Assembly (NCBI GenBank): GCA_030019475.1
Contig: JASEER010000020.1
Location: forward strand, 1 to 42,822
DNA: 42,822 nt
Reading direction: 5' to 3'
DNA from: Thermoanaerobacterales bacterium
GTDB taxonomy: Bacteria > Bacillota > Desulfotomaculia > Desulfotomaculales > JASEER01
The notes under the pieces were generated by a model. It had not been told where the DNA came from, did not search any database, and was given only the letters and a program-made list of their open reading frames with translations. Of this stretch, positions 7,309 to 38,263 are shown piece after piece; position 1 is the first letter of the stretch; the number at the start of each line of letters is the position of its first letter. Position numbers and translations under genes: made by a program.

Positions 7309-7337
7309 TTGACATTATCTCAGTTATGGCTTACAAT
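7309..7337 (+). promoter_or_regulatory. sigma-A promoter of the kamA riboswitch transcript
   Basis: Consensus TTGACA (7309-7314) and TACAAT (7332-7337) are 17 bases apart, about 24 bases before the first riboswitch helix. Confidence 0.85.
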
Positions 7338-7360
7338 AAACTTAATTAAATATTGACCTA

Positions 7361-7477
7361 ACGCTTAATTCTCCGGTGTGGGAAACGGGGGAACCAACTT
7401 TTGGGGTGAGTCCCGGCTTGAAGGCGCCGGGTAGGGTTATCTTTCAATCCGAACCCGTCAGCTAACCTCGTAAGCGT
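7361..7477 (+). promoter_or_regulatory. c-di-AMP riboswitch (ydaO/yuaA class) upstream of kamA
   Basis: The hallmark blocks of the ydaO class occur in order: AAACGGGGGAACC, TTTTGGGGTGAGTCC, GTAGGGTT and CCGAACCCGTCAGCTAACC. The closing helix P1 is formed by ACGCTTA (7361-7367) with TAAGCGT (7471-7477). The class binds cyclic di-AMP and normally turns genes off when c-di-AMP is high. It is followed 55 bases later by a GC-rich hairpin and then by the lysine 2,3-aminomutase start at 7608. Confidence 0.93.
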
Positions 7478-7532
7478 AGAAAGAAAAACAAGCAGGCGGC
7501 TCTTGCCGCATCCTTGGCTAAGATTCTGCGCG

Positions 7533-7573
7533 CTCCGGAGAAGGACGATCCTCTCCGGAGTGTTCGTTTCCGG
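7533..7573 (+). terminator. hairpin in the riboswitch-kamA interval, possible expression platform
   Basis: CTCCGGAG (7533-7540) pairs exactly with 7553-7560, and AGGA/TCCT extends the stem past one bulged A. The tail TGTTCGTTTCC is only moderately T-rich, so it may be a weak terminator. Confidence 0.5.
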
Positions 7574-7607
7574 GGGGACACAAAGCCCGCGAAAAGGAGA
7601 TGATCAC

Positions 7608-8876
7608 ATGGCAACTTACCGTATCGGTTCGCAGGGGTTACCCCCGGAGGAAAAGCGAAAAGTCGCTCTGGGCCGGGCCCGTGAACTCAAGGCCCGTATC
7701 GCCGACTATCTGGCCGTTCGGGATAGCGTGCCTACGGGCTTCAGTTGGGCCGAATGCATTACGGCCGAAAAAGAACGACTGATGAGAATCCTGGGGGCCA
7801 CGAATGAGGAGTGGGCGGATTGGCACTGGCAAATGAAAAACCGCCTGCATACCGTGGACGCTTTGGCTCTTGCGACCGGCGTGCCCGTGACCGATCTCGC
7901 TGAAATTGAGAAGGTCGGTGCGCAATACCGTTGGTCGGTCTCACCCTACTATGCAACCCTTGTCGCCGCCGCGGGGCCGGGCAGTCCCGTCTGGCGTCAG
8001 GCCATTCCGTCCATCGAGGAACTGCGTGATACGGGGGGAAAGCTTGATCCAATGGGTGAGGAGTTCACATCTCCGGTGCCCGGCATTACCCGCCGTTACC
8101 CTGACCGTTTAATCATCAACGTCACCAATATGTGTGCAATGTACTGCCGCCATTGCCAGAGGCGCCGAAATATCGGCGAGGTCGACCGTCACAAGCCACG
8201 GGCGGTGATCGAGGCGGCCCTGGAGTATATTCGGCAGAACCCTGAAATCCGGGACGTGCTGGTCACCGGCGGCGACGCCCTGTTGCTTTCAGACCGCCAA
8301 CTGGATTGGCTTTTAGGGGAACTGCACGCCATTCCTCATGTTGAAATCAAGCGCCTGGGGACAAGGACCATTGTCACCATGCCGCAGCGCATCACCGACG
8401 ATCTGTGCGCCGTCCTGGCCCAATACCCGCCGATTTACATCAACACCCAGTTCAATCACCCTCTGGAGGTTACTGAAGACGCCGCCCGCGCATGTGACCG
8501 GTTGATCAAGGCGGGGGTGGTATTGGGCAACCAGGCGGTCTTGCTTAAGAATGTTAACAACGACCCCTTTGTCATGCGGAAACTGAACCAGGAGCTGCTC
8601 CGCATCCGTGTCCGGCCCTATTACATTTTTCACGCCAAACAGGTCAGAGGCACCCGGCACTTTATTACTTCCGTGGACGAGGGACTGAAGATTATGGATC
8701 AGTTGCGGGGTTACACCTCCGGGTTGGCGGTCCCGACCTATATTATCAATGCCCCTGACGGTTACGGTAAAACGCCGGTGACCCCGACCTATATCCTTGA
8801 ACGCGGGCCGGGCAAGGTGACTTTGCGCACGTGGGAGAACCGCATAATTACCTACCCTAACCGGGACGGTGGTTAA
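7608..8876 (+). CDS. kamA: lysine 2,3-aminomutase
   Basis: This 422-residue radical-SAM, PLP-dependent enzyme converts L-lysine to L-beta-lysine. The cluster motif is C176-x3-C180-x2-C183 (CAMYCRHC), in the usual KamA position. Further family features are VLVTGGDALLLSDRQLDWLL, LNQELLRIRVRPYYIFHAKQ and a C-terminal PTYIINAPDGYGKTP that includes the PLP-lysine region. ATG 7608 follows AAAAGGAGATGATCAC; in-frame codons upstream fall in the regulatory hairpin. Beta-lysine feeds either lysine fermentation or the osmolyte N-epsilon-acetyl-beta-lysine (ablA/ablB). No ablB or other kam genes are adjacent. The c-di-AMP riboswitch upstream favours an osmotic role. Confidence 0.93.
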   Translation: MATYRIGSQGLPPEEKRKVALGRARELKARIADYLAVRDSVPTGFSWAECITAEKERLMRILGATNEEWADWHWQMKNRLHTVDALALATGVPVTDLAEIEKVGAQYRWSVSPYYATLVAAAGPGSPVWRQAIPSIEELRDTGGKLDPMGEEFTSPVPGITRRYPDRLIINVTNMCAMYCRHCQRRRNIGEVDRHKPRAVIEAALEYIRQNPEIRDVLVTGGDALLLSDRQLDWLLGELHAIPHVEIKRLGTRTIVTMPQRITDDLCAVLAQYPPIYINTQFNHPLEVTEDAARACDRLIKAGVVLGNQAVLLKNVNNDPFVMRKLNQELLRIRVRPYYIFHAKQVRGTRHFITSVDEGLKIMDQLRGYTSGLAVPTYIINAPDGYGKTPVTPTYILERGPGKVTLRTWENRIITYPNRDGG

Positions 8877-8891
8877 AGCCGAATACACCCC

Positions 8892-8928
8892 GGCCGGGTT
8901 CTGCGGCATTGCAGGCCCCGGCCTTTTT
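8892..8928 (+). terminator. intrinsic terminator after kamA
   Basis: GGCCGGG (8892-8898) pairs with CCCGGCC (8917-8923), and CTGC/GCAG pair inside; a run of five T follows. Confidence 0.9.
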
Positions 8929-9430: not shown

Positions 9431-9799
9431 CTAAGCCCGGCCCTGCATATACTGTTCCGCGAAGGCGACCATTTTGCGTACCATGTTGCCGCCGAGTTTC
9501 CCGCCGAGGCGGCCTCCGACGGCGCCGCAGGCGGCCGAGGACAGCTCTCCCCAGTAACCGTCACGAATCTGGGCTCCGAGACCCAACTCCTCGGCCACCT
9601 CGTATTTCATTCGGTCCAGCACCTGGCGATAGTTTTCAGGGGTCAGGCTGGGTACCGGGGGCGCAGGGCCGGTTAATTCCCCGGCCATCTCGTAGGCCAG
9701 CTTATCGGAGAAGGGAAACCCCAACTCGCCGGCTACTTCGAATTTTAACCGGTCCAGGGCAGCCTTGGCACCGGCCACCAGGTTTTCATTACGGGCCAA
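9431..9799 (-). CDS. alpha/beta-type small acid-soluble spore protein with duplicated first motif
   Basis: SASPs coat spore DNA and are degraded by the Gpr protease at germination. The 122-residue product starts MARNENLVAGAKAALDRLKF and carries the first SASP helix twice: LDRLKFEVAGELG near residue 16, and LDRMKYEVAEELG about 50 residues later. Each copy has the (F/Y)EVAxELG pattern where Gpr cuts (EIA-SE in Bacillus). The second SASP helix appears once, as GGKLGGNMVRKMVAFAEQ. Typical family length is 60-90 residues, so this one is long. TTG 9799 is preferred because AGGGGGG lies about seven bases upstream and family proteins start with M-A-R-N-like residues; a TTG at 9820 is less likely. Confidence 0.9.
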   Translation of the reverse strand: MARNENLVAGAKAALDRLKFEVAGELGFPFSDKLAYEMAGELTGPAPPVPSLTPENYRQVLDRMKYEVAEELGLGAQIRDGYWGELSSAACGAVGGRLGGKLGGNMVRKMVAFAEQYMQGRA

Positions 9800-9853
9800 T
9801 TGAATCCCCCCTTGGACCAACGTTATTTAATTAACTGTTCATAGTGTTTCCAT

Positions 9854-33473: not shown

Positions 33474-34883
33474 ATGGCTTCTGAAAGGCATGGGGCTTTG
33501 CGCCTGCTGCCGCCGGTGGACGAGGTGTTGCGTGAGATAGACGACCGTGTGGGTCCGCAGCCGCGCGGCGTGCTCGTGGCCGAGACGCGGCGCGTTTTGG
33601 AGGGCTGGCGACATGCGATCCTTGGTGACGAAGCCCCGGTCACGTTTGCAACCCGGGAAGAAGCCCTGGCGCGGGTGGCCGAGGATGTCTGCGAAAGGGT
33701 GCGGCGGACGGCCCTGCCCAACCTGCGGCGGGTGCTTAACGCGACCGGGGTGGTGCTGCATACGAACCTGGGCCGCGCCTTGCTCAGTGAACAGGCGCGG
33801 GAGGCCGTAGCCGAGGCTGCTGGGCGCTACACGAACCTGGAGTTTGACCTGGCCACCGGGCGGCGGGGTTCACGCTACTTTCTGGTGGAGGGCCTGCTGG
33901 CCGAGCTGACCGGCGCCGAAGCGGCGATGGTGGTCAACAATAACGCCGCCGCGGTTCTGCTCGCCCTCAGCACACTGGCGCGAGGCCGAGAAGTCATCGT
34001 GTCCCGGGGCCAGCTCGTGGAGATCGGCGGTTCCTTCCGCATTCCCGAAGTGATGGAGCAAAGCGGCGCACGGCTGGTCGAGGTCGGGGCGACGAACAAG
34101 ACCCATCGCCGTGACTACGAGCGGGCGGTCAATCCCGAGACGGCTCTGCTGTTGCACGTCCATACCTCCAATTACCGCATCGTGGGCTTTACCTGCGAGG
34201 TTAGCGTCGGGGAGCTTGCGGCCCTGGGACACCAGTTCGGGTTGCCCGTTATGTCGGATCTGGGCAGCGGTTTCCTGGTCGACCTTTCCCGCTTCGGCCT
34301 TCCTTATGAGCCGACCGTTCAAGAAACGGTGCGGGCCGGGGCCGACCTGGTGACCTTCAGCGGGGACAAGCTGCTTGGCGGGCCTCAGGCCGGGATCATC
34401 GTCGGGCGGGCCGACCTGGTCGAGCGTATGAAGAAAAACCCTCTGACCCGGGCTATTCGCATCGACAAGCTGACCCTTGCCGGGCTGGAGGCTACCTTAC
34501 GCGCCTACCGCGAACCGGATCAGGCCCTGCGGACGATCCCCACCCTGCACATGCTTACCGCGCCTTACGGGGAACTGGCGAAGCGCGCTGCGGCCCTGGA
34601 GCGCGAACTGGGCGAACTGGTTGGCGAGCGGGCTCTGGTGGAAGCGCGCGACGCTTTTTCCCAGGTCGGAGGGGGCGCGATGCCTACCGCCGTGCTGCCG
34701 ACGCGTGTCGTGGCCGTGCGCCCGCACAGCGGCACGGTGGACGGTTTGGTGACCGCGCTGCGGAGCGGCGACCCGCCGCTTATCGGACGGGTGCAGGACG
34801 ATACCCTGCTGCTCGACGTACGCACCCTGCAGGATGAGGAGATTGCCGTGGCGGCCAGGCTGGTGGCGGGTGCGCTCAGGTAA
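33474..34883 (+). CDS. selA: L-seryl-tRNA(Sec) selenium transferase
   Basis: The 469-residue PLP enzyme converts Ser-tRNA(Sec) to Sec-tRNA(Sec) with selenophosphate. The typical N-terminal domain ([18 protein letters not shown]) is followed by [19 protein letters not shown], the PLP region [18 protein letters not shown] with the Schiff-base Lys, and [22 protein letters not shown] 33474 follows GGAGGATGATCC. selB follows after 86 bases. Its presence, with selB, is what makes UGA recoding plausible elsewhere in this genome. I did not find tRNA-Sec or selD nearby. Confidence 0.97.
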
Positions 34884-34969
34884 CAACCCGATCCAGGAGC
34901 GTATCCGTTCGGGCAACGGGAAAAGAAACGGACGCTTCCCAGGGGTGGCCACAAAGGGGGAAAAGCGGC

Positions 34970-36886
34970 TTGAGACACCTGGTCATCGGGACGGCCGGCC
35001 ACGTGGATCACGGCAAGACAGCCCTTATTCACGTCCTCACAGGTATTGATACAGACCGCCTCCGCGAGGAGAAGGAGCGGGGGATTTCCATCGAACTGGG
35101 TTTCGCTTACCTGGATCTTCCCAGCGGCCGGCGGGCCGGTATCGTGGATGTTCCGGGCCACGAACGGTTTATCAAGAATATGCTCGCCGGCGTCGGCGGC
35201 ATCGACCTTGTCCTGCTCGTCATTGCCGCCGATGAAGGGGTGATGCCCCAGACCCGGGAGCATCTTGAGATCATTCAGCTCTTGGAGATCAAGCGGGGGA
35301 TCGTGGTCCTCACCAAGATCGACCTTGTAGACGAGGAATGGCTGGAACTGGTCCGGGAGGAGGTAACCTCCTTCCTGAAGGGAACGGTGCTGGAAGGCGC
35401 CCCGATCCTGGCCGTCTCCTCGGTAACGCGCGAGGGGCTGCCGGAACTTGTGCGGCTGATCGACGAACTGGCCGCCGACCTTCCCGAGCGGCGGGGAGCC
35501 GGGCCGGCGCGGCTGCCCATTGACCGTGTCTTTTCGGTTACCGGCTTTGGCACGGTGGTTACCGGTACCCTGGTGGACGGCCGCCTGCGGGTGGGTGACG
35601 CCGTGGAGGTTTTGCCCCGGGGTCTGAAAGCCAGGATCCGTTCCCTGCAAGTGCACAAGCGAAAAGTGGACGAAGCAGGGTCAGGACAACGCGTCGCCGT
35701 CAATCTTGCCGGCGTGGATGTAAGCGACGTTGACCGGGGCCAGGTTCTGGTTCCGCCACAGGCCTTCAGGCCCACACAGCGTCTTGACGCGCGCCTGGAG
35801 TTGCTGCCCGAGGCGCCGCGGCCCTTGAAGAACCGGGCGCGGATCCGCTTCTATCTGGGCGCGGCCGAGATCCTTGGACGGGCGGTGATCCTGGACCGGG
35901 ATGCTCTCGACCCGGGCGGGCGGGCTTACGCGCAACTGATCCTGGAGGAGCCTACCGTGGCCGCCAGGGGTGACCGGTTTGTGATCCGGTCCTATTCCCC
36001 CATGCGAACCATCGGGGGAGGCACGGTCATTGACCCTCATCCGCCCCGGCACAAGCGTTACCGCGATGAGACCATCGAAGCCCTGGCGACCCTGGAGCGG
36101 GGGACGCCGGAAGAACTGGTCGTCCAGGTCTTGACCGGGCGCGGGGAAGCACTGCCGGCCGGCGAAGTGGCCAAGGCCGCCGGCTTGAATCAGGAAACCG
36201 TCGGGGAGTCCCTGGCGGCACTCGCTGCCGACGGGCAGGTGGAAACGCTTGAGTGCGAGGGGCAGAACCTCTACATGGCGGCCCAGGTCTATGCGGATTG
36301 GCGCCAAAGGGTCCTGAAAGCGCTGGAAGAATACCGCTCTTCCTATCCCCTCCGCGAGGGTTACCCTAAGGAGGAACTGCGTTCGCGCAAGTTCTCGAGC
36401 GTCAGCGGGCGGCTGTTCCTTTGTTTCTTGCAGAACCTGGCGCAGCGGGGTGAAATCGAGGTCCTGGAAAAGAGTGTCCGCCTGCCGGGCGCGGGATCCC
36501 TTTCGCCACTTCTTGAAGCGCGGGTGAAGGCCCTGGACGATGTGTTCGCCGCGCGGGGCTTCCAGCCGCCTTCTTTTGTGGAGGCCGCGGCGGGTCAGGG
36601 GATCGGTGAGACGGAGTCCTCCGAGTATTTGCACTTCCTGCTCCGAGAAGGGCGGCTGATCAAGCTGGGCGATGACCTGTACCTGCACCGGGATACCGTG
36701 GAGCGGGCCAAGGAGGCCGTCGCGGCCTTCATCCGGGAGAAGGGGGAAATCACGGTCGGTGAAGCACGTGATCTCCTGCAGACTTCCCGGAAGTTTGCCC
36801 TTCCGCTGCTCGAATACCTCGACCAGGTTCGGTTCACCCGCCGCGTGGGCGACAAGCGTAAACTGGCGAAGGGCCAGGGGGTATGA
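34970..36886 (+). CDS. selB: selenocysteine-specific translation elongation factor
   Basis: The 638-residue factor brings Sec-tRNA to UGA codons next to a SECIS hairpin. The N-terminal EF-Tu-like GTPase has [19 protein letters not shown] (G1), [12 protein letters not shown] (G3) and LTKIDLV (G4). Domains II and III follow ([15 protein letters not shown] and later). The last 270 residues are winged-helix modules that bind the mRNA hairpin. The start is TTG 34970 with AAAGGGGG upstream. The next gene starts three bases after its stop. Length matches the bacterial family. Confidence 0.97.
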
Positions 36887-36889
36887 GCC

Positions 36890-37303
36890 GTGGGTTCCGG
36901 GGAGCTAAACGGGGGTAGGGGCGTATACCAGGTTTATGAGGCGGCCGTCGGGGATGGCCGCCACCGTGTCTTCCTGCACGCGGTTTGTACCGGGGACGGG
37001 GCCGTGGTCACCCTGGTAGGGGGGGAACATGCCCACGTGGGAGCGGTGGCGCTGGGCCTGCCGAGGCCCAGCCTGCGGGACGCCCGTACGCCGAGCGCCG
37101 ATGTGGCCGTAGTCCCGGTTCCCGGGCATAAGGATGACCGGGTGGCGCGGCCCGTCGCGGAGGCGATAGCCCGAGTTCTGGGCCAGCCCGTTGTGGTGAG
37201 CGTCGGGCTGCACGTGGACCAGGCCACGGATGAAGACCTGGCCCGCCTGGTTGAGAATGCTCGCACGGCCGCATACCAGTTCCTGGCATCCATCCCCAGG
37301 TAG
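36890..37303 (+). CDS. LpdD-like protein (candidate prenylated-flavin chaperone)
   Basis: The 137-residue protein resembles the small LpdD family reported to assist UbiD-type decarboxylases. Features are VVTLVGGEHAHVGAVALGLP near residue 40, VVPVPGHKDDRVARPVAEAI, and VVVSVGLHVDQATDEDL. The family call is from memory and not certain. GTG 36890 starts three bases after the selB stop, with AGGGGG about ten bases upstream, so it is probably in the selAB operon. The only UbiD protein in the window is 8 kb upstream, in the menaquinone cluster, which is a possible client. Confidence 0.6.
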   Translation: MGSGELNGGRGVYQVYEAAVGDGRHRVFLHAVCTGDGAVVTLVGGEHAHVGAVALGLPRPSLRDARTPSADVAVVPVPGHKDDRVARPVAEAIARVLGQPVVVSVGLHVDQATDEDLARLVENARTAAYQFLASIPR

Positions 37304-37333: not shown

Positions 37334-37362
37334 CTAACAAATCTGTATTTTTTAGGTATAAT
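37334..37362 (+). promoter_or_regulatory. sigma-A promoter of the second riboswitch transcript
   Basis: CTAACA (37334-37339) and consensus TATAAT (37357-37362) are 17 bases apart, just upstream of the riboswitch. Confidence 0.65.
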
Positions 37363-37370
37363 TGTCGCAA

Positions 37371-37492
37371 AAGCCGAATCCCCTTCAAGGGGTACGGGGG
37401 AAAACACTTTTGGGGTGAATCCGGTCCAGGAGGTGAGTATATTTTCCGGTAGGGTACCCTCACCCGAACCCGTCAGCTAACCCCGGAGGCTC
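37371..37492 (+). promoter_or_regulatory. c-di-AMP riboswitch (ydaO/yuaA class) upstream of the wall hydrolase
   Basis: The same class blocks occur as in the first copy: ACGGGGGAAAACA, TTTTGGGGTGAATCC, GGTAGGGTA and CCGAACCCGTCAGCTAACC. P1 is shorter, AGCC (37372-37375) with GGCT (37488-37491). There is an extra hairpin TCCCCTTCAAGGGG near the 5' end. The ribosome site AGGAGGG begins a few bases after P1, so control could act on translation as well as on transcription. Confidence 0.92.
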
Positions 37493-37507
37493 AAGGAGGG
37501 CAGGTTC

Positions 37508-38263
37508 TTGCGTCGATCTTTGCTTATTCTTGTTTTAGGTGCCTTGTTTGCCTTACTCCCCGCCACAGCCAGCCCCGCCGCCACCTATACCGCGCGCCCC
37601 GGCGATTCCCTGTACCTGATCAGCCAGCGGTTCGGCACCACCGTTGCCACCGTGCGCAGTCTGAACGGCCTGTGGACAAGCGATTACATTTACGCGGGCC
37701 AGCGCCTGACCGTACCGGATCCGACGGGAACGCGTTACACCGTGCGGCCGGGGGACAGCTTCTACCTGATCGGCCGTAAGTTCGGCCTTCCCGCGGCGAC
37801 CATCATGCAGGCCAACGGGATCTGGTCCTGGACCATATATCCGGGGCAGGTTCTCTATATTCCGGTTGCGGCGGCGCCGGTTTCCCGGGGCTGGTCGACC
37901 GGCGGCAGCCGGGATCTCGAACTGCTTGCCAGGCTGATCACCGCCGAGGCCGACGATCAGCCCTATCTGGTCAAGGTCGCAGTTGGGGCGGTGGTCCTGA
38001 ACCGGGTCAGGAGTCAACTCTTTCCCAACAGCATTCCCGGGGTGATTTACGATACAGCCTACGGCCACTTCCAGTTCGAGCCGGTTTTAAACGGCTGGAT
38101 TAACCGCCCGCCCTCGCCGGATGCCGTGCGGGCGGCCCGGGACGCCCTGGCGGGTTGGGACCCCACCGGGGGTGCGCTCTATTTCTTTGAACCGTGGGTG
38201 GGTAACCGTTATCTGCATTCTCTCCCGGTAGCTTTAAGAATGGGCGCCTTTGTTTTCTGTTAG
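37508..38263 (+). CDS. LysM-domain cell wall hydrolase (SleB/CwlJ family)
   Basis: The 251-residue secreted protein starts at TTG 37508 with a signal peptide (LLILVLGALFALLPATASPA). Two LysM domains follow, each opening Y-T-x-R-P-G-D-S (about residues 27-70 and 75-117). The C-terminal hydrolase-2 domain (from about 134) has LLARLITAEADDQPYLVKVA, whose Glu is the likely catalytic residue, and VGAVVLNRV. Members cut spore cortex or vegetative peptidoglycan. The double LysM and the c-di-AMP riboswitch suggest vegetative wall turnover linked to osmotic state, though a germination role is possible in a spore former. Confidence 0.94.
   Translation: MRRSLLILVLGALFALLPATASPAATYTARPGDSLYLISQRFGTTVATVRSLNGLWTSDYIYAGQRLTVPDPTGTRYTVRPGDSFYLIGRKFGLPAATIMQANGIWSWTIYPGQVLYIPVAAAPVSRGWSTGGSRDLELLARLITAEADDQPYLVKVAVGAVVLNRVRSQLFPNSIPGVIYDTAYGHFQFEPVLNGWINRPPSPDAVRAARDALAGWDPTGGALYFFEPWVGNRYLHSLPVALRMGAFVFC

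Follow-up and report, generated by a model that had tools for sequence, protein, structure and literature searches.

A c-di-AMP riboswitch upstream of a predicted glutamate 2,3-aminomutase gene and its proposed control of β-glutamate osmolyte synthesis in anaerobic Bacillota

RESULTS

Organization of the riboswitch locus

The window analyzed here, the whole 42,822-nucleotide stretch of a Thermoanaerobacterales bacterium (contig JASEER010000020.1), carries a c-di-AMP riboswitch followed by a gene of the radical SAM/PLP 2,3-aminomutase family, eam, with these features:

7309–7337, + strand: own promoter of the eam transcript, sigma-70-type, TTGACA-17-TACAAT
7352–7491, + strand: c-di-AMP (ydaO/yuaA) riboswitch aptamer, RF00379
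7474–7481, + strand: right shoulder of P1, candidate antiterminator 5' strand, GCGUAGAA
7524–7531, + strand: candidate antiterminator 3' strand, overlapping the left base of the hairpin, UUCUGCGC
7530–7563, + strand: hairpin rich in GC (about −24 to −25 kcal/mol), a probable intrinsic terminator whose U-tract (UCGUUUCC) is weak
7593–7599, + strand: Shine-Dalgarno (SD) sequence AAAGGAG, read from the sequence
7608–8876, + strand: eam, glutamate 2,3-aminomutase (predicted catalysis), radical SAM/PLP, 422 aa, TIGR04368
8133–8156, + strand: CxxxCxxC radical-SAM Fe-S motif (C176, C180, C183)
8637–8639, + strand: Lys344, eam-type, in place of Asp293 of lysine 2,3-aminomutase (alignment to 2a5h)
8748–8750, + strand: Asn381, eam-type, in place of Asp330 of lysine 2,3-aminomutase (alignment to 2a5h)
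8769–8771, + strand: Lys388, aligned with the PLP lysine, Lys337 of 2a5h
8892–8923, + strand: hairpin then TTTTT, terminator 3' of the eam stop codon, −24.6 kcal/mol

The aptamer matched RF00379 over the entire model (1–134 of 134) with all conserved blocks, at 99.8 bits (E = 1.2e-22) against a gathering score of 38, corroborating the ydaO-class riboswitch named in a preliminary description of this DNA. The promoter that the same description had noted with the riboswitch agrees with the consensus at 11 of 12 positions (shuffled sequences yield 0.3 per region), and because it begins after the end (7294) of the preceding gene, a member of the histidine phosphatase family, the eam transcript constitutes a unit of its own. 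As had also been described, no gene lies between the aptamer and the start codon of eam. The terminator hairpin behind the stop codon, which was not reported by a simple terminator scan, makes eam probably monocistronic. For the synthesis of c-di-AMP, the host possesses two diadenylate cyclase (DAC-domain) genes, scoring 158 and 101 bits.

Identity of the downstream gene

The downstream gene had been taken for kamA, encoding lysine 2,3-aminomutase (LAM), an assignment that had to be abandoned. Its 422-aa protein scored 691 bits on TIGR04368, the glutamate 2,3-aminomutase equivalog of NCBIfam (cut-off 650), and 435.2 bits on TIGR03820, the model of the lysine 2,3-aminomutase AblA, under the cut-off of 525.4. 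Lys344 and Asn381 replace Asp293 and Asp330 of the lysine enzyme, the two residues that bind the side chain of lysine, and it is this Lys and Asn exchange of the two aspartates that Ruzicka and Frey are said to have presented in 2007 as the mark of eam. Phylogenetically, the eam branch, which includes the window protein and 79 related loci from the named-genome collection (L006–L084), stood apart from the LAM branch with a support of 100; the nearest relative among the loci found was a protein from a Peptococcaceae MAG (68% identical). By model score, residues, and tree, the product of 7608–8876 is a glutamate 2,3-aminomutase with predicted catalysis, known here from its sequence, and its predicted product would be β-glutamate.

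It is highly improbable that the gene instead encodes a lysine 2,3-aminomutase that feeds acetyl-β-lysine synthesis through a distant ablB. Membership in the same radical-SAM family, the LAM structure 2a5h as the sole PDB relative by sequence, and the presence of ablB in the genome speak for that reading, but the protein falls under the LAM cut-off and over that for eam, carries Lys and Asn at both lysine-binding positions, and clusters with eam proteins, and these three lines led us to reject the lysine identity; in addition, a true ablA that keeps both aspartates adjoins ablB elsewhere. With the gene recognized as eam, the question of β-lysine and ablB does not arise at this locus, and an adjacent acetyltransferase is unnecessary because β-glutamate, the predicted product, already is an osmolyte.

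The leader and its candidate switching device

A GC-rich hairpin had been noted after the riboswitch; we located it at 7530–7563 (about −24 kcal/mol), within a leader (7480–7607) that folds 3.8 standard deviations better than shuffled sequences (z-score −3.8). Owing to its poor U-tract (UCGUUUCCG), the hairpin was missing from a terminator scan of the + strand, and with four U among the nine bases after the stem, termination is less certain here than in relatives such as Desulfosporosinus and Desulfocucumis, whose eam leaders contain terminator hairpins with U-runs. The segments 7474–7481 and 7524–7531 are complementary over 8 bp with one G-U pair (p = 0.023 against shuffles, uncorrected), and this candidate antiterminator has the geometry of the Dehalobacter switch, in which the right shoulder of P1 pairs with the left shoulder of the terminator (PMC9337991). 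A simple, crude search of relatives revealed no general counterpart of the pairing.

The eam leaders of Syntrophomonas contain hairpins that cover the SD sequence (CCCTCC/GGAGGG right before the ATG). Terminator hairpins in some lineages and SD-covering hairpins in others appear to be different output devices serving the same logic. At loci L034, L046, L047, and L064, hairpins hiding the SD sequence just before the ATG (some 60–100 bases 5' of eam) suggest that in Syntrophomonadaceae c-di-AMP controls the translation of eam rather than its transcription.

Conservation of the link between riboswitch and eam

Our survey of the order counted an aptamer when it lay within 700 bp upstream of eam on the same strand. 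Among the matches listed (150 aptamers), at least 46 of the 68 eam genes in 80 genomes had one, a lower bound that compares with a chance expectation of 0.017 (about 0.02). These genes, at least 46 in number, are distributed over 46 genomes and 12 family groups, with the aptamer 48–333 bp upstream; seen from the other side, nearly a third of the 150 aptamers listed (46) sit on eam. The remaining 22 eam genes, some of them at contig ends, had no aptamer among the matches listed. Only 9 of the 50 LAM-like genes bore one, again among the matches listed, and five genomes, including the present one, carried it on both an eam and a LAM-like gene. In the named-genome collection, Rfam identified the aptamer at 34 of the 79 eam loci, including one cut at the contig edge (L007), and a 35th locus (L073) was recognized by motif only. 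Cultured relatives in which eam is arranged in this way include Desulfosporosinus lacus and Thermosyntropha lipolytica.

On the eam tree, the aptamer-bearing loci fall into one large group (Syntrophomonadaceae, Desulfotomaculaceae/Peptococcaceae, and Desulfosporosinus) plus one Clostridiaceae locus, and at least seven changes are required, a pattern that fits an old association followed by later losses. One Pelotomaculum eam gene (L017) is preceded by a tandem of a Na+ riboswitch and the c-di-AMP aptamer. In another relative (G024:C1:623348–626118), a c-di-AMP aptamer, eam, and a LAM-like gene follow one another on one strand, so that eam and ablA apparently form a single operon.

Other c-di-AMP riboswitches in the genome

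The genome contains five RF00379 aptamers, one before eam and the others as listed, together with the gene following the second aptamer of the window:

C8:64786–64916, − strand: c-di-AMP aptamer before ablA-ablB
C8:10833–10970, − strand: c-di-AMP aptamer before a betaine/proline/choline-family ABC ATPase gene (proV family)
C1:37082–37233, + strand: c-di-AMP aptamer before the binding-protein and permease genes of a polar amino-acid ABC transporter
Window 37362–37505, + strand: c-di-AMP aptamer (87.8 bits) directly before a LysM/cell-wall-hydrolase gene
Window 37508–38263: LysM and cell-wall hydrolase (SleB-like) gene, an ordinary ydaO target

The preliminary description had proposed looking for ablB elsewhere in the genome, and it was found on contig C8 beside a true ablA with a c-di-AMP riboswitch directly upstream. 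This AblA scored 576.6 bits on TIGR03820 (cut-off 525.4) and has the residues QCD and DAPGGGGK; AblB, encoded by the next gene, scored 250.9 bits on TIGR03827 (cut-off 205.1). The ablA leader contains a 20-nt GC hairpin and ACTTTTGTTTTT (in all, GACCCGAGGATCCTCGGGTC-ACTTTTGTTTTT), a textbook terminator. The proV-family ATPase exceeded its cut-off (431.5 bits on TIGR01186, cut-off 326.6), and the polar amino-acid transporter genes remained under equivalog cut-offs. Lysine fermentation, raised earlier as the explanation that would tell against an osmolyte role, was checked through the D-lysine 5,6-aminomutase alpha family (PF09043): this family had no match in the genome, and the same search, run on 119 genomes of the phylum as a positive control, had matches in 29.

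Two further features of the window lie apart from these genes. The selenocysteine machinery genes selA and selB occur together at 33474–37303, upstream of the second riboswitch, and 9431–9820 (− strand) encodes a 129-aa protein with two α/β-type SASP stretches, a double small acid-soluble spore protein.

DISCUSSION

Wall hydrolases and the transport of K+ or osmolytes are the usual targets of ydaO riboswitches. The aptamer described here is full-length like others of the RF00379 class, but its target is a gene of osmolyte synthesis, so that a second messenger usually tied to K+ and osmolyte transport is here often placed on an osmolyte-making gene, an arrangement frequent across a large group of anaerobic Bacillota. 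We consider it very probable that the glutamate 2,3-aminomutase gene, the only one on its transcript, is subject to an OFF switch formed by this canonical c-di-AMP riboswitch, in the service of β-glutamate as an osmolyte; we infer both the response to the ligand and the OFF direction from the riboswitch class and a published in vitro case. At high c-di-AMP, in a cell not short of osmolytes, the aptamer would be folded and the right shoulder of P1 kept in P1, the downstream hairpin would form, and transcription would end before eam. A drop in c-di-AMP upon osmotic upshift would open the aptamer and block the hairpin, allowing eam to be produced, and the enzyme would convert L-glutamate to β-glutamate, a metabolically inert anionic osmolyte that presumably accumulates in this organism. 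Through the same aptamer class, the same signal would reach ablAB, the betaine/proline-family and polar amino-acid ABC importers, and the wall hydrolase. The earlier proposal that c-di-AMP directly sets osmolyte synthesis is thus well supported as regards a β-amino-acid osmolyte, whereas the β-lysine route that it invoked falls away at this locus, where the gene is eam.

The hairpin might not be a terminator at all, with c-di-AMP changing the access of ribosomes instead. The weak U-tract in the window and the SD-covering hairpins of Syntrophomonadaceae eam leaders would agree with such translational control, which we nevertheless regard as unlikely, since no strong anti-SD pairing was found by eye in the window leader, the 7530–7563 stem sits 30 nt 5' of the SD sequence, and the hairpins of nearby relatives such as Desulfocucumis (L008) and Desulforadius (L074) resemble terminators. 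It seems less likely still that β-glutamate serves mainly in another role, such as redox balance, protection from light or heat, or nitrogen storage, with c-di-AMP acting as a general envelope or stress signal. Blue light induced eam in Moorella (PMC7835215) and the aptamer class is shared with a wall hydrolase, but the remaining aptamer targets include ablAB and the betaine-family transporter, and β-glutamate in methanogens increases with NaCl (PMC1224877).

Beyond the proposed OFF switch on eam, it is conceivable, albeit tentative, that the five aptamers place a whole osmolyte programme under one second messenger, encompassing both β-amino acids, import, and wall loosening. Anionic β-glutamate and zwitterionic acetyl-β-lysine would then arise from separate transcripts alongside betaine-family and amino-acid import, possibly with graded affinities that shift the cell from anionic to zwitterionic solute as stress grows.

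To our knowledge, the bacterial use of β-glutamate has barely been studied, and the proposed control gives eam a clear physiological role that is open to testing. Our assignment also cautions against taking eam for lysine 2,3-aminomutase. In methanogens, β-glutamate is regarded as an ideal osmolyte that is anionic and metabolically static, and it is known from a few bacteria; earlier NMR work spoke against an aminomutase route in methanogens (PMC1224877), which would make eam a bacterial route. In Moorella, eam has been proposed to make β-glutamate as an osmoprotectant (PMC7835215). The ablA-ablB pair, which yields N-epsilon-acetyl-β-lysine in methanogens and bacteria, is present in our genome at a locus separate from eam.

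In the closest published system, ablA of Dehalobacter sp. CF is preceded by a Na+ and a c-di-AMP riboswitch in tandem; the latter is an OFF switch (PMC9337991, 2022), and c-di-AMP cuts read-through to <5% in vitro. Both systems have a c-di-AMP aptamer and a terminator before a 2,3-aminomutase gene of osmolyte synthesis, but the Dehalobacter target is ablA and that described here is eam, with ablAB forming a separate unit under its own c-di-AMP switch; moreover, the tandem includes a Na+ riboswitch, whereas none was found in this genome. The same study lists eam as a gene of the Na+ riboswitch, not under c-di-AMP (PMC9337991). We found no report of c-di-AMP control of eam in the literature searched, the main ydaO papers being outside that search. 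The breadth of the link and the identity of the gene thus appear unrecognized in the literature searched, although a link between c-di-AMP and β-amino-acid osmolyte synthesis has already been published for ablA, and our survey widens that single case to a conserved rule. We also considered whether the published Dehalobacter gene might be eam after all. This is countered by LAM motifs at four Na+/c-di-AMP tandem loci (L095–L097 and L101; three genomes of one genus), which have QCD and, where the locus reaches that far, DAPGGGGK; the published reading as ablA therefore looks right for the tandem arrangement.
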